A stretch of 21,248 bases of DNA from a virus. The notes beneath the pieces are model-generated. The model ran no database searches, was not told where the DNA came from, and worked only from the letters and a program-made list of their open reading frames with translations. The first letter of the stretch is position 1. The number at the start of each line of letters is the position of its first letter. Location of the stretch: positions 1 through 21,248 of the IMG/VR virus record IMGVR_UViG_3300036716_000705; one strand, written 5' to 3'. This document shows positions 5,050 to 20,997 of the stretch, piece by piece. Both the position numbers and the translations under genes were made by a program.

Positions 5050-8000
5050 TTATGGGGTTGGGTCTATATAAAATTTATCGCCAGTTATAATTATCTCCAG
5101 CCTTCCGTCTTTTTTTGTAGGAAGTTTGCCATTTATTAATTGACTTTCTTGCCCTGATTTTATATCAGGGAATAAGTCTGCAATCTTTTCTTTTAAAGCA
5201 TCGTAGTCTCTCGAATATGATGGATTCATATCATCATATGTAGTTGTATATATGCCAAAGAATGTGCTAGGATTACTAATCGTTGTCGAAACACCATTTG
5301 CGTCAGTATATATAATTGGTGCAATGTTACTAAAATCTTTAACTTCAATAACATTTCCCATATCATCTGTTACGGTTGTCCTGTCTCCAATATCATAACT
5401 TGTTATTAGTTTGTATATCTTTTTGGCCTCATTATATTGAGTTACTTTATTAGGATTAGCCATTGCATATTCCCAACCAATTCCTTCACCAGCAAAATTC
5501 TTGGAATATCTTGATTTTAAACTTCCTGGTAATATAATATCCATAGTATTAAGAGCAGTCTTTACCAAGATTGGCGCTTTGTCTACCTCAATTTGTGCAA
5601 CTGGATTTTGTATTGGAACATATGTTGTATCATTGCCTGTTACTTTAGTTGCTACTGCTGTAATTTTTTCGGCTGGTAGACCAAGTTCTAAAACAGCGGC
5701 TTCAAATTCAAGTTCTTCTAATGATATTGCATCCACTACTCGATGACTAGGGTCGAAGTAATATGTCTTATTAAGAATCGCATCTTGTTTTAAACCAGAT
5801 GTTACTAATTCTCCTTGTATCTTGCCAATACTGATTGCTTTGCCAATATCCCCTCTGTGTCCTGTTTTCACACTAGCATTTATATCGTTGATTCCTTGTG
5901 CTAAAGTTTCAACGGTCACAAAATCTTTTTCTGTGAGTCTCTCTAGTTCTTCGGCTTTTCTAATTTGTGCCGCGGCTCTGAAGTTCATTGCTCTTCTTAC
6001 ATCATCCGATACTACTATTTTTTCTTTTTCAATATTTTCAACTATTGCTTTTGTTGTGCGTTCATACCATTGCTGTTCTCTAACAACATCATCAACTGTA
6101 ATTGGTGTTTTTTCTATAATGGTTTTAATTTCATCAACAAGAACTTTTACATCACCTGCTTCTGAAACTGTTAATGTGTCTGCATCAGTCTTTACAATCT
6201 CAAGTTTTCTTGTTTCAGGATTAAACACTTTTTCTTTTGCAACTACATTATCAACGGTTTCTTCAAACCAATGTGTGGCCTTCCAATCACCATTTGAATT
6301 CGGATAAGTGATTTGGTCTCTATATTTTTTTTCATTCCATGTATAAGTTGGAAGGTTTATTAATACCTCTGTTGCTTCTTTATTAACTAGTTCTGTATTT
6401 CCATTTAACATGCTGTTATCAACCGTTGCACCTAACGGCTCACTACTAGTACGTTCGTGTGTTCCATTAGAAATTTCTTCTAATATAACTGTTGGTGTTC
6501 TTTCTCCAGTCGCATCAACTACTAGTTTTTGTATGTTATCTGAATTGTGACCTGTAATGTTTAATTCACCTCCGCCAGCGATTTGATACATTGCAACTTC
6601 TTGTGCTGAAAGAACAAAACTAGCATCAGTGGCTGGATCGGCAATTACATCATTAAAATAATCATTGATTGCTGTTATAGTAGATGCTTTTCCTTTGTCC
6701 TCTATGGTAAGTCCGAGTGTTTCAAGTATTGTGGCTTCGGATGCTGTTACTTGCTCACAACTACTTGGCGCAAGACCGGTGGCACATGCATCACGTAATT
6801 TTCTTGTGTTCTCAAGGTAAATAAGAGAATTATTCCATCTTGCCCAATTATCTAATAGAATTGCATCATGTTGCCCTAGTGCTGGGTTTACTGGAGTTAC
6901 TGCTAATGTGTCTACAATATCTTGCTGTAGGTTTTCCATTCTTTCATTTTCACCCCCCATCTTTTCATTAAGTTCCACGTCAAACACACGTTGCCACGCG
7001 GCAACAATACGGTCAACATAATTTGGTCCCTCTTCTTCAATTTTATTGTACATTCTTTCCTGTATCACTTCAACTGATTCCATTTTTCCATCACCTACAT
7101 AATAATACCCGTTCAAATCCCGTCCAAGTACATCTCTATGAACACCATCTGCGCCAGTGACTACTACTCCTTCATAGTCTCCTTCATAGTTTCCTGTTGT
7201 GTAAGTCGCATCTATATCTACTTCTAGGTTAGCATCATTGGTGTCTGTCCTTTCGGTTAGTTGTCCTGCAGAAACAACTCCTGCGTCCGAAGTAAAATGT
7301 TCTGCCGTAGTGTTTTTTACCATCATTAATGTCTGAGTAAATATTCCATTGGAAAATGAACTTGTCATACTGCTCACTGCATATAAACTTGTAATGAGAT
7401 TTCTTTTAAGTATATTGTCGTGTAAGTCAACACCATCAGTTACTCCTGATGTTAATATCATGCCGTTCCAACCATTCTTTGTTGTTTGTATATTTAATCC
7501 TTGTTTGTCTCCTCCACCATTACCAAATGTTTTCTTCAAAGTTTTTTCACCAATCGGCATATATCCTTCTAACCAATAAGGATCACCCTTAATAGTTATT
7601 TGGGCGTGAATCATACTTGGCTTAAGTTGTTTTGATTCGTAGTATTTTGCTTTAACAAGTTCCAAATCTATATCATCGGCTGCTTTAAGTGTATAACTTC
7701 TATTTTCGGCACCCATCTTTCTTATTAGACGTTGAAATGTGATAGGGTTACTTGCTTGTGCTTTAAGAATAGTTCTATAATCATCGTTAGATATTTTAGA
7801 TACGAAATCATTATCTAATTCTTCTGCCAGTATTAGTTTTTTTGGATTTTTATTTGCGTTTTTGACGCCCTCGAATGCTGATTGAATTCCTTTAGACGCT
7901 TTGTTGTGTTTTGAACTTATGGTACTAGACACCGCATCCATATATGATTCTTCAGCGAGTGTTTGGGCGGCTTGATATTCTTCTCCTGATTTAGCCGCTA

Positions 8001-9918
8001 ACTTTTGGGCTTCTACTACCTCACTGTGCAATTGATTTAATCTGGCGTCCATATAGCCAGTATCGAACTCTTTCATAAATTCTTCATTTTCAAATTGAGT
8101 TTCAAGGTCAATATAGGATTTGCCTGCAAATATATCTTCCATTTCACTAGGTGGCATAGAGGTGTCCGTGAAGTTGTTAGTGGCATTACCCTTTTGGTGC
8201 ATTACTTTATGACCGTAAAACTTGTAATATGCGTTAATTATTTGACTTTTGTAAGTGTATTCTTGATTCGCCAGCATCGTTGTCGCATCTTCTTTGGCTT
8301 TTTGTAATTCTGTATCAATATCTTTTAGTCTCTTTGCTTCTGCCGCATTCTTATCGACTATCTCTCGGTGTGCGCCCGATATGTGCTTACCCTCTGCACC
8401 TTCTTTTATAAAATGTTCATATGCCCAGAAATCATCAGGCGTAGAATATGTCTTCAAAAGTTGCGAGTCTAATGAAATGCTAAAGTCTAATATCTGGTCA
8501 TTATTTCCAGTAAACAAATAATCATATTTTTTATTGACGTGTAGATTATCAAATAATTGTTGAAGCACTTCTCGATAACTTAGAATCTTGGCTTGTTGAT
8601 TTGGCATATTTTGGTCTATTACCTTTTCTTCATAGTCTATAAAAAACTTAACATCATATGAATTTTTTCCTTCTACTGGATTATATCCATCTGTTTTGAT
8701 AGCCAGATTTGGAGTAATTTTTAATACTTTATTTGTAGTATGACTATTTCTTTTTAGTTCTTTTCTAACTTCTTCTGAAATAAGGCATATCTCTTCGATG
8801 ACTCCGTAAATCAAATTCTGTGGTAATACTTGGCCAACTGGTTCAGCGTCATTTTTACCTTTCTTTTTAAAGTTTTTTACCTGATCCCACGATACACCTA
8901 ACATTGAACCTTTTGAGAATCCGACATCTTTAAATTGTGTAGAGAATTCATAACTATATGAATGTTTTAGATTTGCGTCTAGAGTGATATGATTATCCGT
9001 CACTGATTTGTTTAACTCTACAAAAAAGGTGTCTAATGTTTCTTTTAGTGTACTGCCCACCTTAAAGTCAAATCCATATTCATTATTACTCACATCAATG
9101 TCCATTACAATTGCGTCTGCTGGCGATTGTCCATCGATAACCGTAGTTGTTCCCCTTGCATCTGTTGAAGTGCTTAGTTCGTGATATTTGCTGATTTTAA
9201 ATGGTAAGACTTTTGTTTGGTTAATCTTTTCTGACTTGCCATCTTTGTGTCCTACAAAATTAATTTTAATATAATATATAGCAGTGCTAATAGAAGTAAA
9301 TCCACATAGAAGAACTGCGTTTTGTAAATTATCTGTTAAACTTGTTTCTCCAACTTGTGTGATAGTGAAAGATAATTTATCCGCTACACCGGCAATTTTA
9401 CTATAATTAGAATTTCCCTGGGGTAAGGATTCCACGGTTAAATCTGTTATATTAAATTCAGTAGTTACCCCAGTTTTTGCTATTATGATTTTATTATCAT
9501 TAGGACCTGGCCAGTTATTGGTGACGACATCTTCTATAATGAAAGATTCTTCTAATTGAAATTTTCGATTTGCCTCTCTATCAACAACAAACAATTCTAG
9601 GTTATATGTGTAGGAATCAAAGACATCAAGTGGGTTTTCGATGAAATTTTTGGTATCTACAAAATCTACTAAAGAGGTCATTCCATTATCATTCTTTGCT
9701 TTTGCTAACGCTATTAATCTCGCATCTGCTTTAAAATTTGCATCATCATCATCGGCTGGCTTTCTTTTTCTGGCTGCCTCCTTATCCACCCATTTAACAT
9801 CGTGGTCTGTAGTGTCTTCCCAAGTGATGGCAGTTTTGTGTGCGTCATACTTATCCACAGTGCCATCGTTGTGTTTGTAACTAACCTCACCAGTTTGAAT
9901 ATTAGCACTATACCCCAT
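5050..9918 (-). CDS. Giant baseplate structural protein, cyanophage VrlC-like
   Basis: 1622 residues, the largest gene here. It lies between gene 53 and gene 5, where cyanomyoviruses carry a large virion protein annotated VrlC-like. Visible parts: an N-terminal region to about 520 rich in beta strands (e.g. NSYDVKFFIDYEEKVIDQ), a charged helical and probably coiled-coil stretch at about 530-730 (DKNAAEAKRLKDIDTELQKA), a segment at about 790-890 containing KGDPYWLEGYMP and SFSNGIFTQTLMMVKN, and an acidic C-terminal half. The FTQTLxMVKN strand resembles tail-hub tube strands; since no separate gene 27 is seen, it may supply the hub function (inference). No enzymatic motif was found in the C-terminal 700 residues. 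AGGAA ribosome site before the ATG. No frameshift or stop interrupts it. Confidence 0.7.
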   Translation of the reverse strand: MGYSANIQTGEVSYKHNDGTVDKYDAHKTAITWEDTTDHDVKWVDKEAARKRKPADDDDANFKADARLIALAKAKNDNGMTSLVDFVDTKNFIENPLDVFDSYTYNLELFVVDREANRKFQLEESFIIEDVVTNNWPGPNDNKIIIAKTGVTTEFNITDLTVESLPQGNSNYSKIAGVADKLSFTITQVGETSLTDNLQNAVLLCGFTSISTAIYYIKINFVGHKDGKSEKINQTKVLPFKISKYHELSTSTDARGTTTVIDGQSPADAIVMDIDVSNNEYGFDFKVGSTLKETLDTFFVELNKSVTDNHITLDANLKHSYSYEFSTQFKDVGFSKGSMLGVSWDQVKNFKKKGKNDAEPVGQVLPQNLIYGVIEEICLISEEVRKELKRNSHTTNKVLKITPNLAIKTDGYNPVEGKNSYDVKFFIDYEEKVIDQNMPNQQAKILSYREVLQQLFDNLHVNKKYDYLFTGNNDQILDFSISLDSQLLKTYSTPDDFWAYEHFIKEGAEGKHISGAHREIVDKNAAEAKRLKDIDTELQKAKEDATTMLANQEYTYKSQIINAYYKFYGHKVMHQKGNATNNFTDTSMPPSEMEDIFAGKSYIDLETQFENEEFMKEFDTGYMDARLNQLHSEVVEAQKLAAKSGEEYQAAQTLAEESYMDAVSSTISSKHNKASKGIQSAFEGVKNANKNPKKLILAEELDNDFVSKISNDDYRTILKAQASNPITFQRLIRKMGAENRSYTLKAADDIDLELVKAKYYESKQLKPSMIHAQITIKGDPYWLEGYMPIGEKTLKKTFGNGGGDKQGLNIQTTKNGWNGMILTSGVTDGVDLHDNILKRNLITSLYAVSSMTSSFSNGIFTQTLMMVKNTTAEHFTSDAGVVSAGQLTERTDTNDANLEVDIDATYTTGNYEGDYEGVVVTGADGVHRDVLGRDLNGYYYVGDGKMESVEVIQERMYNKIEEEGPNYVDRIVAAWQRVFDVELNEKMGGENERMENLQQDIVDTLAVTPVNPALGQHDAILLDNWARWNNSLIYLENTRKLRDACATGLAPSSCEQVTASEATILETLGLTIEDKGKASTITAINDYFNDVIADPATDASFVLSAQEVAMYQIAGGGELNITGHNSDNIQKLVVDATGERTPTVILEEISNGTHERTSSEPLGATVDNSMLNGNTELVNKEATEVLINLPTYTWNEKKYRDQITYPNSNGDWKATHWFEETVDNVVAKEKVFNPETRKLEIVKTDADTLTVSEAGDVKVLVDEIKTIIEKTPITVDDVVREQQWYERTTKAIVENIEKEKIVVSDDVRRAMNFRAAAQIRKAEELERLTEKDFVTVETLAQGINDINASVKTGHRGDIGKAISIGKIQGELVTSGLKQDAILNKTYYFDPSHRVVDAISLEELEFEAAVLELGLPAEKITAVATKVTGNDTTYVPIQNPVAQIEVDKAPILVKTALNTMDIILPGSLKSRYSKNFAGEGIGWEYAMANPNKVTQYNEAKKIYKLITSYDIGDRTTVTDDMGNVIEVKDFSNIAPIIYTDANGVSTTISNPSTFFGIYTTTYDDMNPSYSRDYDALKEKIADLFPDIKSGQESQLINGKLPTKKDGRLEIIITGDKFYIDPTP

Positions 9919-10962: not shown

Positions 10963-10992
10963 TTGACATATGTTAACTATATATGTTATAAT
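10963..10992 (+). promoter_or_regulatory. Sigma-70-type promoter with extended -10 for gene 55
   Basis: TTGACA (10963-10968), an 18-base spacer, then TATAAT (10987-10992) preceded by TG at 10984-10985. Both hexamers are perfect. This strongly suggests early transcription of gene 55 and the genes behind it by the unmodified host polymerase. AGGAGA at 11005-11010 is the ribosome site. Confidence 0.82.
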
Positions 10993-11018
10993 TGTTTATA
11001 AATTAGGAGAATTTCACT

Positions 11019-11888
11019 ATGGCAAGGCGACAAAACTATTTAAACAACAAGGATATGTTGAAACAAATACATATCTCAAAATCTAACTACTCTTGGTTCG
11101 AAGATAGAGACAAGTATCATCAGCATGATATTATACTATACTCAACTGATGATATTCCCGAAGCAGTGGACCAAGCAAGAAAGAACAAATCAAAGCGTTT
11201 ACAAAAATTGGCGTGGGATGCGAACGAAGACAAGAAGAAAAAGCAAGTCGATTTCGAAGTGGACCCTGCTTCTTTTACTGAAGACGAAATAATATTTCGT
11301 ATAATGGGATTTGACCATATACCTGATGAGCCGGGTAGAAAAGCAAATCCAAAAACAATAGCAGACTACAAAGTAAAATTACCATTTCCAGCATTCACCC
11401 ATTACACATATGTAGATGGAAATCTCAATGAAGTTGGAATATCACATTATAACAAAGACAAAGAATTTGATTTATCTTCTGGTAAAATTACCGCGGTATT
11501 GGCAACTATGTATATCAAACTAGTAGAAAGATATTCTCAACGGTCAAACTGGAGAGGATACACATACATTGACGAAATGAGAGGCCAAGCGTTGTTACAA
11601 TTGGCACAAATAGGTCTTCAATTTAACGAAGATAAGAGTGATAATCCATTTGCTTACTACACAACAGTAGTGAATAATTCATTCACTCGGGTACTTAATA
11701 TTGAAAAGAAAAATCAAGGCATTCGTGATGACTTGCTAGAAAATGCAGGACAGGCGCCAAGTTGGACAAGACAGTTGGCACACGAAATGAAATCTCAGGA
11801 GCGTTGGCAACAAATCATCAAAACAAAGATTACAGATGATGCTATTCCAACAGAAACCATTAAAGAGATTTACGCTGACAATGACTAA
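11019..11888 (+). CDS. 55: Late transcription sigma factor gp55
   Basis: 289 residues. The core at about 185-245 (NWRGYTYIDEMRGQALLQLA, DKSDNPFAYYTTVVNNSFTR, then VLNIEKKNQG) matches the sigma region 2-like part of T4 gp55, where NFRNYTFVDDM, KSKNPFAYFTQIIYFAFIRR and IQREKKQ occupy the same places. gp55 replaces sigma-70 on host RNA polymerase and recognises the TATAAATA late octamer. T4 gp55 has 185 residues; the extra 100 or so at the N-terminus, charged and lysine-rich, are unexplained. The acidic C-terminal end (IKEIYADND) lies where T4 gp55 has its clamp-binding tail; binding is inferred. It has a strong sigma-70 promoter and AGGAGA 8 bases before the ATG, and it overlaps gene 47 by 8 bases. 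Confidence 0.92.
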   Translation: MARRQNYLNNKDMLKQIHISKSNYSWFEDRDKYHQHDIILYSTDDIPEAVDQARKNKSKRLQKLAWDANEDKKKKQVDFEVDPASFTEDEIIFRIMGFDHIPDEPGRKANPKTIADYKVKLPFPAFTHYTYVDGNLNEVGISHYNKDKEFDLSSGKITAVLATMYIKLVERYSQRSNWRGYTYIDEMRGQALLQLAQIGLQFNEDKSDNPFAYYTTVVNNSFTRVLNIEKKNQGIRDDLLENAGQAPSWTRQLAHEMKSQERWQQIIKTKITDDAIPTETIKEIYADND

Positions 11889-12900
11889 CAATTTGTTTAA
11901 AAAGGCCGCTTGTTTCACGGATATACATTGGGGTCTTAAAAATAATGCGAAACAACATAATGAAGATTGTTTAGATTTCATTGATTGGTTTATCGAGGAC
12001 GCAAAGAAAAGAGATTGTGAAACTTGTATATTCTTGGGTGATTGGCATCATAACAGGTCAAGTCTCAATATATCAACGATGAAATATAGCATTGCTGGTC
12101 TACGAAGACTAAGCAAAGCATTCAAGAAAGTTTATGTTATCTTAGGAAACCATGACTTATTTTATCGTGAAACTCGTGATGTAAATTCTATGGAATTCAT
12201 TGACGACCTTACTAATGTTGTTCTAGTGAGAGATAAATTAGTCGAGGGCGATGTTGCTATCGTCAGTTGGCTTGTAGGTGATGAATGGAAGAAGATTCCT
12301 AAATTAAAGACAAAATACATCTTTAGTCATTTAGAGTTGCCAAGATTCAAACTCAATGCTATGATAGAAATGCCAGACCACGGTGGATTAAATGGCTCTA
12401 TGTTTACTAATCAAGATTATGTATTCACTGGGCACTTTCATAAACGTCAAGTAAAAGGTAATGTAATTTACATAGGCAATGCATTCCCTCATAACTTCTC
12501 GGACGATTGGGATGATGATAGGGGGTGGATGTTCTTAGAATGGGATAAAGAACCAGAGTTCTTTACTTGGGAAGATGCACCAAAATATAAGACAATCGCA
12601 TTATCAAAATTATTAGATGCGCCAGATAAGTATCTAGTTCCAAAAACAACAGTAAAGATAACATTAGATATCGATATTTCTTATGAAGAAGCAAATTTTA
12701 TTAAGGATACATTTGTAGAAACTTACAAGTTGCGTGATGTGACTCTTATACCGGTCAAAAACACTGAACACGAAGATGACACTGGTGCTGAAATTCATTT
12801 TGAAACAATAGATGAAATTGTAATAGCACAATTATCATCATTAGCCGATACTGGAAGTTTTGATAAAAGAGTATTAATAGAAATTTATAATAATTTATGA
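11881..12900 (+). CDS. 47: Recombination endonuclease subunit gp47 (Mre11/SbcD type)
   Basis: From the ATG at 11881 the protein has 339 residues, the same as T4 gp47; the frame is open 45 bases further up inside gene 55, but that start would add an unrelated N-terminus. The metallophosphoesterase motifs are in order: DIHWG (14-18), GDWHH (53-57), GNHD (89-92), SHLE (149-152) and GHFH (184-187). With gp46 it forms the nuclease that resects DNA ends for recombination-dependent replication. It overlaps the gene 55 stop by 8 bases (ATGACTAA), and its own TGA overlaps the next ATG, so gene 55 to gene 46 is one translationally coupled run. An SDR gene separates it from its partner gene 46. Confidence 0.95.
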   Translation: MTNNLFKKAACFTDIHWGLKNNAKQHNEDCLDFIDWFIEDAKKRDCETCIFLGDWHHNRSSLNISTMKYSIAGLRRLSKAFKKVYVILGNHDLFYRETRDVNSMEFIDDLTNVVLVRDKLVEGDVAIVSWLVGDEWKKIPKLKTKYIFSHLELPRFKLNAMIEMPDHGGLNGSMFTNQDYVFTGHFHKRQVKGNVIYIGNAFPHNFSDDWDDDRGWMFLEWDKEPEFFTWEDAPKYKTIALSKLLDAPDKYLVPKTTVKITLDIDISYEEANFIKDTFVETYKLRDVTLIPVKNTEHEDDTGAEIHFETIDEIVIAQLSSLADTGSFDKRVLIEIYNNL

Positions 12901-13511
12901 AAAGAATACTAATCACTGGAAGTCGTAACTATGGCTTATGCGAGGCTATATGTAATTCATTTGATAACTTTAATCAAGGATATATTGATGATGAAATCGA
13001 ATATGAAACAGCAAGTAGAAGTAATGGATATAATTTAGAGACAGCAAACGGACAAAACAAATTAACAAAACATTATATCAAGGAAAACTTTGATATCTTT
13101 ATAAACAACTCTGCGATATGGAAATTTCATCAGGTTATGATTGTTGAATCGATGTTTAATGCCATGAAAGACGCAGATAGAAAAGGACACATTATAAACA
13201 TCGGATCAACTGCTGACACTGGCGTAAAGGGAAGAACCTGGAGATATCCTACGGAAAAGAAAGCACTCAAAGCCTACAATAGAGATTTAACTTATATGGC
13301 AATGGGTGGCAGTAATATAAAAACAACATTAATATCACCAGGAAGTCTAACAACGCCAAGTGTTATGAAGAAACATCCCGATAGAAAACTGATTGATGTC
13401 GAATATATAGCGGAACTAGTCATGTGGATAATCAATCAACCAGAGTATATAAATGTCAACGAACTGTCGATTGACCCTATACAAGATGGCATTTACGCAA
13501 GAGAGGTATAA
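12897..13511 (+). CDS. Short-chain dehydrogenase/reductase
   Basis: 204 residues with the classical SDR layout: an N-terminal beta strand and cofactor loop ILITGSRNYG (4-13), INNSA (69-73) in place of NNAG, catalytic Ser104 in NIGSTAD, and Tyr117-x-x-x-Lys121, with Ser and Tyr 13 apart as usual, then SPGSLTTP (147-154). One oddity: the third glycine of TGxxxGxG is Cys15. Substrate unknown; reductions of sugars, acyl groups or pteridines are all possible. It is sandwiched between genes 47 and 46, with ATGA overlap to 47 and 2 bases before 46, so it is expressed with the recombination nuclease. Whether it is metabolic or has lost catalysis cannot be told from sequence. Confidence 0.85.
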   Translation: MKRILITGSRNYGLCEAICNSFDNFNQGYIDDEIEYETASRSNGYNLETANGQNKLTKHYIKENFDIFINNSAIWKFHQVMIVESMFNAMKDADRKGHIINIGSTADTGVKGRTWRYPTEKKALKAYNRDLTYMAMGGSNIKTTLISPGSLTTPSVMKKHPDRKLIDVEYIAELVMWIINQPEYINVNELSIDPIQDGIYAREV

Positions 13512-16351: not shown

Positions 16352-16597
16352 ATGTCTAATACTGAAAAAATGAAATGGCTGGCGACTATTATGTTCGTTT
16401 GTGCCGGAACATTAATATCTTTTAATATACCCGAATCCAAATATGCGTTTCCGCTATTTGCGACAGGTCATTTGATAGTTTTGGGGGTATTTTTGAGATT
16501 AAAAGATAAACCAATGATTTTTCAAAACGCATTCTTCTTATGTATTGATATATTTGGAATATGGCAGTGGCTATTAGCGCCTATATTTTTTGTTTAA
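16352..16597 (+). CDS. Small membrane protein, three predicted membrane segments
   Basis: 81 residues from the ATG at 16352, which has AGAGAG 8 bases upstream; a longer version from a TTG at 16313 would begin inside the terminator tail and is unlikely. Hydrophobic stretches lie at about 7-24 (MKWLATIMFVCAGTLISF), 30-48 (AFPLFATGHLIVLGVFLRL) and 55-78 (FQNAFFLCIDIFGIWQWLL). The layout and the charged KDKP turn between segments 2 and 3 resemble short membrane proteins of unknown function in T4-like marine phages. It follows a terminator and possible attenuator. A TCTAAATA (16316-16323) could be a weak late octamer. Its 3' end overlaps the convergent endonuclease gene by 17 bases. Confidence 0.68.
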   Translation: MSNTEKMKWLATIMFVCAGTLISFNIPESKYAFPLFATGHLIVLGVFLRLKDKPMIFQNAFFLCIDIFGIWQWLLAPIFFV

Positions 16598-17018
16598 GGC
16601 TTTGTAAGTACTCTTTGAGAATTTTTGAACTTCCCACTCGTACATTGATAATACCATTATAGTACTCATCTGTTTCAAGCACTCTACGGTCAAATTGTTC
16701 TTTGGCTTCTACATAACTTAATGCGCCACGACTCGGACAATAGTGTAGAATCTCACGGGAAAATTTATCGGGACCTAATTTTTTTACATCGGCATTCAAA
16801 TGGTCAGAAGAACCCCAATAGGTTCTCCAATCGCTTTCTTTATATCCACGTCTTTTGTTCTTTCTACCTTTAAGTGGTGGTTTAGTGGTTTTAAATCTTG
16901 CTAACTTCTTACCAATGTATTTCCGATTATCTGTAAGATTTGTAATCACATACACAAAACCTTCTACGTCTTCGGGTAAATCATTAACAACTTCATTATT
17001 ATATGTCCAATCACTCAT
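16581..17018 (-). CDS. GIY-YIG endonuclease, Seg-like
   Basis: 145 residues. The GIY-YIG core is EGFVYVITNLTDNRKYIGKK (19-38), with Tyr and the second-strand Y-I-G in place; the basic region (KGRKNKRRGYKESDWRTYWG, 50-69) holds the family's arginine and a W-x-x-Y-W-G-S motif seen in T4-like Seg proteins. Glu104 or Glu107 in LSYVEAKEQF is the likely metal ligand. No DNA-binding module follows, so target range is unclear. Such free-standing genes are homing endonucleases that spread between related phages; here it lies beside a large structured RNA. Two AATAAATA octamers (17136-17143 and 17113-17120, minus strand) and a dyad (17049-17064) lie in its leader. The ribosome site is weak. Confidence 0.83.
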   Translation of the reverse strand: MSDWTYNNEVVNDLPEDVEGFVYVITNLTDNRKYIGKKLARFKTTKPPLKGRKNKRRGYKESDWRTYWGSSDHLNADVKKLGPDKFSREILHYCPSRGALSYVEAKEQFDRRVLETDEYYNGIINVRVGSSKILKEYLQSLKQKI

Positions 17019-17048: not shown

Positions 17049-17064
17049 TAGGTCTAAAGACCTA
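17049..17064. repeat. Perfect inverted repeat in the leader of the GIY-YIG gene
   Basis: TAGGTCT and AGACCTA with a 2-base spacer. In the minus-strand leader it would form a hairpin with 5-6 pairs about 30 bases before the ATG; as DNA it could be an operator. In T4, homing endonuclease leaders often carry hairpins that limit translation; that role is inferred here. Confidence 0.5.
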
Positions 17065-17112
17065 ATATCTTCGGAAATTTCTTTTCGTTCCACTCAAAGA
17101 ACATTTCCTTGA

Positions 17113-17120
17113 TATTTATT
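17113..17120 (-). promoter_or_regulatory. Possible late promoter octamer for the GIY-YIG gene
   Basis: AATAAATA on the minus strand, with a second copy at 17136-17143. One base from the GATAAATA used elsewhere in the window, but the surroundings are very AT-rich, so chance is likely enough to keep confidence low. Confidence 0.35.
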
Positions 17121-17151: not shown

Positions 17152-17643
17152 TGTTGAGTTTGGAAGACACAATTGCCCTCCTATCGGGGCAACTGCTGAT
17201 ACTTGTTTAGTTCATCAGATTCTATGTCTAAGTTAGCCACTAGTAATGGCGAGGTCGGTTGGCGATTCCCTCTTAACTTAGTATTGCGTCTTTCGACCCA
17301 ACGGCACTTCGATTAATCCACATAGAATAAAACTTTATCAAAGTCGGTAGTATTGTAAATCTACCAGCGGTGTGTACATTTCTGTACGGTAAATACTAGT
17401 CATTCGAATACCTTTAGAGTACCGAATGTTATGTTATAAACAGTTCTTGTGGTTACGAGAAGCAGTGTCGGAGTTCATCCCAACTTATCTGAACGCCTAG
17501 CACTATACTAGCGTCCTCAATCCCGGAACGGCATCCCGCTCAACAGATCCACTATGTTTGCCATTATTAGAATCATTATTAGCCATAATTTCTTTTAGTG
17601 TTTGGGGTATATTGAGACTTGTATTAGAATTTATATTAGTTAT
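17152..17643 (-). ncRNA. Large structured non-coding RNA of unrecognised family
   Basis: No gene fits here, and the GC content rises (about 48% in 17461-17520) above the flanks. Read on the minus strand it folds into successive helices inside a closing helix TGTTGAG (17545-17539) with CTCAACA (17158-17152). Inside: CGGGAT/GTTCCG (17538-17533/17529-17524, using G.U pairs); ACGCTAG/CTAGGCGT (17514-17508/17500-17493); CATTCG/CGAATG (17428-17423/17406-17401); GTACA-GAAA-TGTAC (17387-17374); GGTAG/CTACC (17365-17361/17350-17346); ATTCTATGT/ACATAGAAT (17328-17320/17227-17219) enclosing GTC-GAAA-GAC, CTAAGTTA/TAACTTAG and two small hairpins; TTGCCC/GGGCAA near 17170-17192. GAAA loops and G.U pairs support the minus strand, as does the promoter at 17650-17678. 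The 3' end is not defined. Confidence 0.72.
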
Positions 17644-17649
17644 GAGAAC

Positions 17650-17678
17650 ATACTAACACAATCTATTATAGATGTCAA
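17650..17678 (-). promoter_or_regulatory. Sigma-70-type promoter with extended -10 for the large RNA
   Basis: On the minus strand: TTGACA (17678-17673), 17 bases, TAGTAT (17655-17650) with TG at 17658-17657. The predicted start is near 17643. The 14-base block TAAAAACGCTTGAC (17687-17674) is identical to that at the 16115 promoter. Confidence 0.75.
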
Positions 17679-17695: not shown

Positions 17696-17917
17696 TTATA
17701 AAATAGGTGTTCCAGCCTTTTTACTCATCTCAAAGTTCTCAGATATTATCTCGTTTAAGTGTTTGATATGACTAGTCGGCATTTCGTGAAGTTCAGATAT
17801 ACTGACACCCCCTCTCATGTACCAAGTTAGTTTGTACAAGGATTTGTGTAGAGAGTCAAGTTGTTTTTGATAAGTCTCTTGTCTTTCTACAATTTCCGCG
17901 GCGCTGGCAGACTTCAA
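17696..17917 (-). CDS. Small baseplate-hub assembly protein (gp51-like), possibly made by frameshift
   Basis: 73 residues if started at the TTG at 17917. A helical N-terminal part (AAEIVERQETYQKQLDSLHK) is followed by LTWYMRGGVSISELHEMPTS and a helix ending ENFEMSKKAGTPIL. The W-Y-M-R-G-G-x-S turn and the K-K-x-G-x-P end recall small proteins found just behind gene 26 in T4-like phages and linked to hub assembly catalyst gp51; this is from memory and needs a profile search. The TTG has only a poor ribosome site (AGG 4 bases away). The frame lies at -1 relative to the gp26-like gene and remains open back through its last codons, where A-AAT-TTT forms a slippery heptamer, so a fusion is a real alternative. 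The strand then carries the RNA promoter. Confidence 0.6.
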   Translation of the reverse strand: MKSASAAEIVERQETYQKQLDSLHKSLYKLTWYMRGGVSISELHEMPTSHIKHLNEIISENFEMSKKAGTPIL

Positions 17918-18843: not shown

Positions 18844-18894
18844 TTTAATAATAACTACGAAGTTTTAGAATATAACAAAACATAGAGAGTATTG

Positions 18895-20997
18895 ATGGCA
18901 CAAGAACAAGATGTATTTATTTCGGGAATTAGCGGCAGTATTGCTCAGTGGAGTACTGAAGCAACTGCAGGTAGAATATCAACAACATTAAGTCAGATAG
19001 CAGGACAGAATGTCCAACTTATAAACTTACTTAATCATGTCGCCGCAGGCACAAAAATGTCTACAAAAGAGATGAACGAAATGGGCAACGAAGTTCGATC
19101 CTCAAACAAGGCAGCAAAGTCGGGGCAAAAAGCCGAGAGGATTGAGGCAGCGAAACAAGGACAATTCTGGAAAGGTCTAATGTCTAAAGTTGGTATGGGT
19201 GATAATAGAATAGTTGAGCAATTAATAAAGAATCAACAGTCAACCAGAAACGCCTCAAAAAAGATTGAAGAATTGGTGAAAAGTGGTGTTAACAGAGACG
19301 TAGCAACGTCATTCGTAAGAAAAGAGGACGAAGATGGTAACCTGCTACCAGATAGCGTTAACAGAAAAAACTTTACGAAGGCCGCAGGCGCAGTTATGGC
19401 ATTCTTGGCCACAATTGAAGATGCCACAAAGGCTGGTTACTTGGAAAGAGCAAATATGGCGGCTGAATTACGCCAATCGGGTTTAACGGCTTCATTGGAT
19501 AAAACGAATCAAGGATTTCTGCAACTTTCGAGAATGATTAGTGAGACAGGATTTGAATTTGGTCATGCGGCAGAATTCACTAAAGAGTTCTCTAGAACAG
19601 TAGGAATCAAAGGAGTACAGAGTACATTAAAATTTGCCAACTCTATGGCAGACGCTGAAAGCGAAACAGGAATGATGCAAAAATTTGCTTTGAGTTTCGG
19701 ACAAGTTGTCAATATGTCAGGACAATATCTTGACGGATTAAGAATTTCAGGACAACTTCAAGGAAGGTCAGACCAACAGTTAAGAAAAGGAATGGACAGT
19801 TTCATGTCTAATGTCGAGGCTACTTCGAATGTATTGAAAATTTCAATGGAAGAAGCGGCAAAAATGATGGCAGACTCTATGACAGATGTCGACCAAGGTA
19901 GATTCTTAACTCTTGATCCAAAAATGCAAGAATCTATTCTATCAGGTTTACAATTTGCAGGTGCTGGTGAAGGACCAATAATGGATTTACTCGCGGCAAG
20001 ACTTGGAGCAGGTTCTGAACAAGCGTTCATGATGACAAGCGAATTCCAAGAGTATTCTGGTTCTATGCTGGGACAAGAATTATTAAAATATGTTAATCAA
20101 GTCGCACCAACATTGGGAAACCAGGGTGACAAAGCATTTCAAACACAATTAGCAAATACATTGCCTCAAATGGTTGATGGACTAATAGAGATGTTTAGTC
20201 AATCAGGCAACCGGGCACTTATTATGTCTAATGACCAGGAGGCGAGCAGATTAGCCCAGTTAAGTAAAATGAAACAAACTATGGCAGATGCGAACAAAGG
20301 TATTTCTGGCGGCGGTAGAGAAGACAAAGCCGCTATGTTATATACAGAACAACAACGTGAGGCAGTAGTACAGGCAGAAAGGTCAATGACTAGATTAATG
20401 CCTGCATTTACAAAAAATATTGAAGATTTGACTACAGTAAACAGGGAATTTGCTAACCAGGCAGCCATGTCGTTAAAATTCAACCAGTCTCTCATTTCCT
20501 CACTCACTAACACCATTGTTGCCGCGGATATTGCCTTCAAGAGCGCCGCCATTGGCTTCTTTGAGATGCAAGGCGAGTCTTGGACAGATTTCTTCAAGCA
20601 ATTCTTCGCCGGTGAAGACATTAAAAATCCGCTCTTTGACGGTACCGGTACTTCGTTCAAGAGTATAACATCACAGAACTCTCTTGCAAACCCAACCAAA
20701 TCCATCGACCAGTTAACAAGCGATTTTGGCGTTATGAATTTAGAAGAAGCCAAAATTCAATTGGAAAAATTAAAAAAAGAACAAGGGAATAACACAGAGT
20801 TTTTTGAAGCAATTGCTGGCAATACATCTATGTTACCAATTGTGTTACCTGCACTTATGACCTTGTTGACAATACCTGGCGGCGACAAGATTATTGGACT
20901 CAATCAAGGCGTGAGAGACGCCGGCGTGAATGCTGAAAGCCAAGCAAGAGTTATCGCAGCCCTTGAAGCCTTTATAAAAACTCTTGAAAATCAATAG
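18895..20997 (+). CDS. Probable tail tape measure protein (gp29 position)
   Basis: 700 residues from the ATG at 18895; GAGAG lies 5 bases upstream, and the TTG just before it (18892) is less likely. The protein is almost wholly alpha-helical with high Gln, Met, Ala and Ser content and no enzyme motif. Features include a helical N-terminus (IAQWSTEATAGRISTTLSQI), long amphipathic helices through 200-550, and a hydrophobic segment near 655-672 (SMLPIVLPALMTLLTI) as many tape measures have. It lies next to the hub assembly genes, where tape measure genes usually sit, though divergently. T4 gp29 has 590 residues. No residue-level match to gp29 was recalled, so the role rests on composition, length and position. 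Another internal virion protein remains possible. Confidence 0.5.
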   Translation: MAQEQDVFISGISGSIAQWSTEATAGRISTTLSQIAGQNVQLINLLNHVAAGTKMSTKEMNEMGNEVRSSNKAAKSGQKAERIEAAKQGQFWKGLMSKVGMGDNRIVEQLIKNQQSTRNASKKIEELVKSGVNRDVATSFVRKEDEDGNLLPDSVNRKNFTKAAGAVMAFLATIEDATKAGYLERANMAAELRQSGLTASLDKTNQGFLQLSRMISETGFEFGHAAEFTKEFSRTVGIKGVQSTLKFANSMADAESETGMMQKFALSFGQVVNMSGQYLDGLRISGQLQGRSDQQLRKGMDSFMSNVEATSNVLKISMEEAAKMMADSMTDVDQGRFLTLDPKMQESILSGLQFAGAGEGPIMDLLAARLGAGSEQAFMMTSEFQEYSGSMLGQELLKYVNQVAPTLGNQGDKAFQTQLANTLPQMVDGLIEMFSQSGNRALIMSNDQEASRLAQLSKMKQTMADANKGISGGGREDKAAMLYTEQQREAVVQAERSMTRLMPAFTKNIEDLTTVNREFANQAAMSLKFNQSLISSLTNTIVAADIAFKSAAIGFFEMQGESWTDFFKQFFAGEDIKNPLFDGTGTSFKSITSQNSLANPTKSIDQLTSDFGVMNLEEAKIQLEKLKKEQGNNTEFFEAIAGNTSMLPIVLPALMTLLTIPGGDKIIGLNQGVRDAGVNAESQARVIAALEAFIKTLENQ

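Follow-up and report, generated by a model that had tools for sequence, protein, structure and literature searches.

What is encoded by some 490 bases without an apparent gene in a T4-like phage was the question raised by positions 17152 to 17643 of the window, i.e. the whole stretch of 21,248 nucleotides analysed, for which a preliminary description had proposed a large, ornate structured RNA on the minus strand. This 21.2-kb viral record from IMG/VR has the gene content of a T4-like phage: genes for the late sigma factor gp55, gp46/gp47, baseplate wedge proteins, a hub/lysozyme protein, a T4 baseplate (hub) protein and ClpP. The stretch is flanked by a 73-aa gene (17696-17917, minus strand), which is the next after the hub gene, and by a SegE-type GIY-YIG gene (16581-17018, minus strand; PF19835). 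PF19835 comprises free-standing homing endonucleases. The absence of a gene was borne out: no open reading frame of at least 50 aa exists between 17113 and 17695, no conserved protein-coding frame was found in the stretch, and single-base insertions and deletions separate close relatives in the RNA alignment. A 27-codon leader peptide was considered and rejected, since its ATG start is lost among close relatives (AAG in L119).

Forty-three distinct syntenic homologues, 60-91% identical and lying between the hub and SegE genes, were reached in IMG/VR via the neighbouring proteins. Conservation of their noncoding blocks was strong, for instance 91% along 57 nt, versus 50-57% identity for the hub protein. 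The minus strand folded better than its dinucleotide shuffles (z of -2.42, with 2 of 100 shuffles as good) and the plus strand no better than its own (z of -0.15), in agreement with the strand originally proposed. A 90-pair structure was fitted to a 31-sequence alignment with 95.5% of the cells paired and double-sided changes in 40 pairs, so that the compensatory changes expected in homologues of a folded RNA were present; none of 500 shuffles and no slid version of the structure came near the real one, whether judged by cells paired, by double changes or by covariation score, and the core gave the same outcome against shuffles and slid controls when tested alone. In a tree of 45 RNAs, one pair of helix P9 (17298-17262) underwent eight independent compensatory events and no breaking one. 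This stretch of the window encodes a conserved structured RNA, kept in an elaborate knotted shape across a group of uncultured T4-like phages.

The RNA runs, from 5' to 3', through a leader, hairpins H1 to H4, a kissing strand, H5, H6, a core (P7 to P12), H13 and a tail of two hairpins (Table 1). The core forms a nested pseudoknot. P8 has its 5' strand in the loop of P7 and its other strand far downstream, so that P7 and P8 make one pseudoknot, and both P10 and P11 are crossed by P9. The 9-base helix first described at 17328-17320/17227-17219 contains P8 and is retained, though the multi-branch junction suggested earlier is in reality this nested pseudoknot. The two hairpins reported to end in GAAA loops were both recovered, at 17387-17374 and 17297-17288, the first missing in some clades and the second keeping a GNRA loop throughout the alignment. 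The kissing contact proposed for the P12 loop (17246-17240) found its best fit with the CUAG at 17399-17396. The 7-base closing helix proposed to enclose the consecutive helices (17545-17539/17158-17152) had to be abandoned: only 49.8% of its cells were paired, shuffles did as well, and it overlaps the covarying hairpin H1 by three bases. H13 is flanked by a pair of similar sequences (17216-17202 and 17163-17150), which vary in step across relatives, as repeats and not as complements (for example GACAAG/GACAAG, GGAACAAG/GGAACAAG).

Table 1. Features of the RNA gene, in 5' to 3' order on the minus strand. Percentages are alignment cells paired; "double-changed" pairs carry double-sided changes.
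Feature	Positions	Strand	Evidence or remarks
Sigma70-type promoter TTGACA-N17-TAGTAT, extended -10 TG	17650-17678	-	kept in close clade
TATAAAT, possible T4-type late promoter	17629-17635	-	weak; gp55 homologue encoded at 11019-11888
AU-rich leader, CUAAUAYAAA repeats, length variable	17557-17643	-	alignments; start inferred from -10 site
H1 hairpin, 6 bp	17526-17541	-	100%; 4 of 6 pairs double-changed; strongly covarying
H2 hairpin, variable length	17493-17514	-	88.4%; 3 pairs double-changed
H3 hairpin, 5 bp	17467-17484	-	100%; 3 pairs double-changed
Unpaired stretch CUGCUUCUCGUAACCACA, near-invariant	17448-17465	-	alignment
H4 hairpin, conserved loop CUCUAAAGG	17401-17428	-	6 of 10 pairs double-changed
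CUAG, kissing partner of P12 loop	17396-17399	-	100% in 31 sequences; U-A to C-G in 9 of them
H5 hairpin, GAAA loop	17374-17387	-	absent from some clades
H6 hairpin	17346-17365	-	98.7%; 3 pairs double-changed
P7 (17344-17337 with 17313-17306)	17306-17344	-	83.5%; 5 of 8 pairs double-changed
P8, core outer helix (17326-17320 with 17227-17221)	17221-17326	-	99.5% in 31 homologues; double changes
P9 (17303-17298 with 17262-17256)	17256-17303	-	100%
Small hairpin, GNRA loop	17288-17297	-	loop GAAA/GCAA/GUAA across alignment
P10 (17281-17274 with 17235-17228)	17228-17281	-	92.3%; covaries in relatives
P11 (17272-17269 with 17254-17251)	17251-17272	-	100%; GAGG/CCUC to GGGG/CCCC
P12 hairpin, loop UUACUAG	17236-17250	-	100%; 3 of 4 pairs double-changed
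H13 hairpin, 10 bp	17169-17196	-	94.5%; distant relatives share layout
3' tail: hairpin 17116-17064, then hairpin AGGUCUUUAGACCU 17063-17050	17050-17116	-	kept despite different next gene

The near-ideal extended -10 promoter noticed just upstream of the RNA was confirmed, and it was absent from the more diverged window-type clades (L039/L041). At the other end, the AGGUCUUUAGACCU hairpin is kept in L129, L208 and L242, where a gene other than SegE follows, so the tail belongs to the RNA. Within the window this two-hairpin module occurs once; among 131 distant loci, 91 have it on the 3' side of the RNA. It is likely the 3' end of the transcript. The gene would thus be an independent one, extending from about 17643 to about 17047 on the minus strand, with transcription starting at its own promoter, predicted to end at its own tail hairpins and yielding a noncoding RNA of about 600 nt; the preliminary description was right about a large RNA, but its estimate of about 490 bases was too short. 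The same promoter form (TTGACA...TGTTA..AT) also precedes clpP (2431, plus strand) and gp55 (10963, plus strand), and promoter and TATAAAT occur together in the three units (2431-2470, 10963-11003 and 17678-17629 for clpP, gp55 and the RNA, respectively), with TATAAAT starting 33-43 bases past the start of the -35 box in all three. These units possibly carry an early plus late promoter pair; the spacing is suggestive only, and the window shows no enrichment of TATAAAT (10 found vs. about 15 expected from composition).

No Rfam family, GOLLD and ROOL included, matched the window at the gathering score, and a search of an 851-base region at E-values up to 10 revealed no family in the core and no RF01718 (three chance-level matches were ignored). 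Judged by covariance model, the window RNA is a member neither of RF01718 nor of GOLLD, ROOL, group I or II introns, or HDV-like and other ribozymes, and no tRNA or tmRNA was found in the window. Against phage records, the window RNA as query gave weak chance matches only, and two distant RNA types used as queries revealed no related DNA. Such an RNA is easily overlooked, its core lacking an Rfam model and no similar sequence turning up in the phage records searched. Since compensatory changes were seen and neither a known-intron match nor a protein frame was found, the original interpretation of the stretch was supported.

Relatives beyond the syntenic group were found through the core. A profile search, considering phages with sequence across the site, detected the RNA where the hub protein was at least 50% identical and not in phages where it was 36% identical or less. 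A hand-made motif combining P9 and P11 detected the core in diverged phages, and just 5' of it RF01718 (Polynucleobacter-1, 141 nt) matched with 77-116 bits. A covariance model built from window-type RNAs only (R1) was run against 449 kb of diverged loci, where all 8 matches with E-values up to 5 fell on the core, and against a second set, where 15 of 16 distant matches did so; E-values of single matches were 0.03-5. With the model built from distant relatives only (R2), the window core scored 6.2 bits and ranked tenth, while in L036 the core ranked first with 18 bits; this reverse test gave a weak result for the window itself, which counts against the link.

The core pattern was found in at least 120 viral stretches of the viral collection; among the matches listed, 102 of 129 occurrences were within 1.5 kb 3' of a SegE gene, 100 of them on the SegE strand, mostly with 160-290 bases between the SegE gene and the core. 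In 257 Gb of genomes the pattern gave 15 matches, none near a SegE-type gene: three were Methylococcales contigs which also carry RF01718, and the remaining ones look like chance. RF01718 was present directly 5' of the core in 15 of 20 SegE-adjacent loci. The RF01718-type pseudoknot was 96% paired, with 22 of 33 pairs double-changed; P7 and P8 of these relatives had 12 of 13 pairs and 5 of 5 counted pairs double-changed, respectively.

Based on sequence comparison, the window RNA appears to belong to a superfamily sharing a homologous P7-P12 core, and very probably has a common origin with the RNAs bearing RF01718, given the R1 matches, the intermediates L065, L067 and L074, the shared helices, the nearly identical core motifs (CGUUNN ... 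NNAACCG), the tail and the neighbourhood. Both kinds of RNA have the same core, the same SegE gene beside them and the same kind of tail hairpins, but the window RNA lacks the RF01718 domain, its 5' half consisting of another set of hairpins, and it is located upstream of the SegE gene and not downstream as in most relatives. RF01718, a little-studied database motif, becomes one end of a large phage RNA, a variable 5' domain within a superfamily of such RNAs. To this superfamily, for which no other 5' domain was known before, the window RNA adds a new branch whose 5' domain differs from RF01718. The architecture, with its strong covariation, is tied to a specific gene neighbourhood of T4-like phages. 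Two observations concern the wider set of loci. In the Methylococcales contigs L401 (38-108 and 378-960), L402 and L408, RF01718 and the core occur with no SegE gene nearby, and in L401 a tRNA is located 270 bases upstream of them. Another conserved and apparently structured RNA (RNA-C; L066, L068, L071 and L072), with a similar tail (GAGCG..AGCGA), is present 3' of the SegE gene, and was recognised by neither the R1 nor the R2 core model.

An independent phage gene for a structured noncoding RNA is, on balance, probably the best overall explanation of the locus. The placement of the RNA relative to the SegE gene varies: it is upstream in the clade of the window, most relatives have it downstream, and in two loci the two are divergent. 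Of 108 distant loci, 73 have a convergent gene, encoded on the opposite strand, as the next one downstream, and the window-type RNAs of L129, L208 and L242 have other genes downstream. Since position and orientation vary, the next gene is often convergent and a SegE gene is missing from the vicinity in some relatives, the RNA is likely to act in trans, and would not be the leader of a neighbour. What it would do there is less certain. By analogy, its likeliest role, put forward tentatively, would be that of a folded structural scaffold, alone or with protein, during lytic growth, as supposed for GOLLD and ROOL; this role was chosen because the layout is most like theirs. GOLLD and ROOL are also large, ornate, noncoding phage RNAs with kissing loops and pseudoknots, they form RNA-only assemblies, and in GOLLD the 3' part is conserved and the 5' part less so (PMC12286853). 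With its pseudoknots, kissing loop and GNRA loop, a 3' core that is conserved, a 5' domain that varies and its phage setting, the window RNA resembles them, but its family was not seen near tRNA genes, with the exception of L401. The locus provides a defined, testable large RNA for study, much as GOLLD and ROOL were prior to the solution of their structures. That the core is a new kind of active RNA (a ribozyme, or else an assembly made of RNA only, of the GOLLD/ROOL kind), equipped with exchangeable 5' domains, RF01718 among them, in many uncultured T4-like phages, is possible, though rather doubtful.

The nested pseudoknots and the near-invariant unpaired bases of the core would also suit a catalytic RNA (self-cleaving, self-splicing or trans-acting), with the core and its near-invariant joining sequences as putative active site. 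Nested pseudoknot topology is common to the window RNA, HDV-like ribozymes and group I introns, and the order P9-P10-P11-P12 presumably resembles the P1-P2-P1.1-P4 crossing of HDV-like ribozymes. We nevertheless consider catalysis unlikely: no Rfam ribozyme or intron matched even with E-values up to 10, the P3 hairpin is missing at the HDV position and no known catalytic core is present, and the genes on either side are intact, so there are no interrupted exons or exon pair for splicing.

It is similarly improbable that the RNA serves the SegE-type GIY-YIG protein as guide, cofactor or substrate, in the manner of HEARO RNA with IscB/IsrB, also a structured RNA beside a nuclease gene. In diverged phages the RNA is directly downstream of the SegE gene at near-constant spacing, and conservation of the protein greatly exceeds that of the adjacent hub (77% vs. 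34% identity to L074). An obligatory link is, however, ruled out by several relatives without the gene: the window-type RNAs of L129, L208-L211 and L242 have no SegE gene nearby, nor do the Methylococcales contigs L401 and L408. Conversely, many phages (Melnitz, S-SRM01, L221, L237) have a SegE gene without an adjoining RNA, and orientation varies by clade. The case differs from HEARO also in that no model was matched and in that the nuclease is of the GIY-YIG type and not always nearby.

A cis element, either a riboswitch-like leader or a 3' UTR, controlling the SegE gene or the hub operon would agree with the window itself, where the RNA lies between the SegE and the hub-side genes on the same strand, and with RF01718 having been flagged as a possible cis-regulator (Weinberg et al. 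2010, PMC2864571). The clade-dependent placement of the RNA upstream or downstream of SegE or divergent from it, the convergent next genes mentioned above and the RNA's own tail hairpins, which stand between it and the next gene, make this hardly likely. That the RNA is what remains, in degenerate form, of a mobile element brought by the adjacent homing-type endonuclease is suggested by the family of that neighbour, yet very improbable in view of the strong selection on structure in every lineage, the compensatory changes across all clades and the single RNA copy in each viral stretch.

Some protein genes of these loci also deserve mention. The SegE-type protein of the window is 77-95% conserved where the hub protein is 34-78%, which is odd for a homing endonuclease, and is often labelled NAD synthetase in cyanophage annotation. 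In L036 (2796-4004) and also in L038, the RNA and the SegE gene are separated by an inserted gene for a 402-aa protein, which has a CNLACRTC motif of the kind seen in radical SAM enzymes. Elsewhere in the window, a 701-aa protein (18892-20997) had no family match, a 1622-aa protein (5050-9918) matched a virion protein family over part of its length only, and a short-chain dehydrogenase-like gene (12897-13511) is located with gp47 on one side and gp46 on the other.
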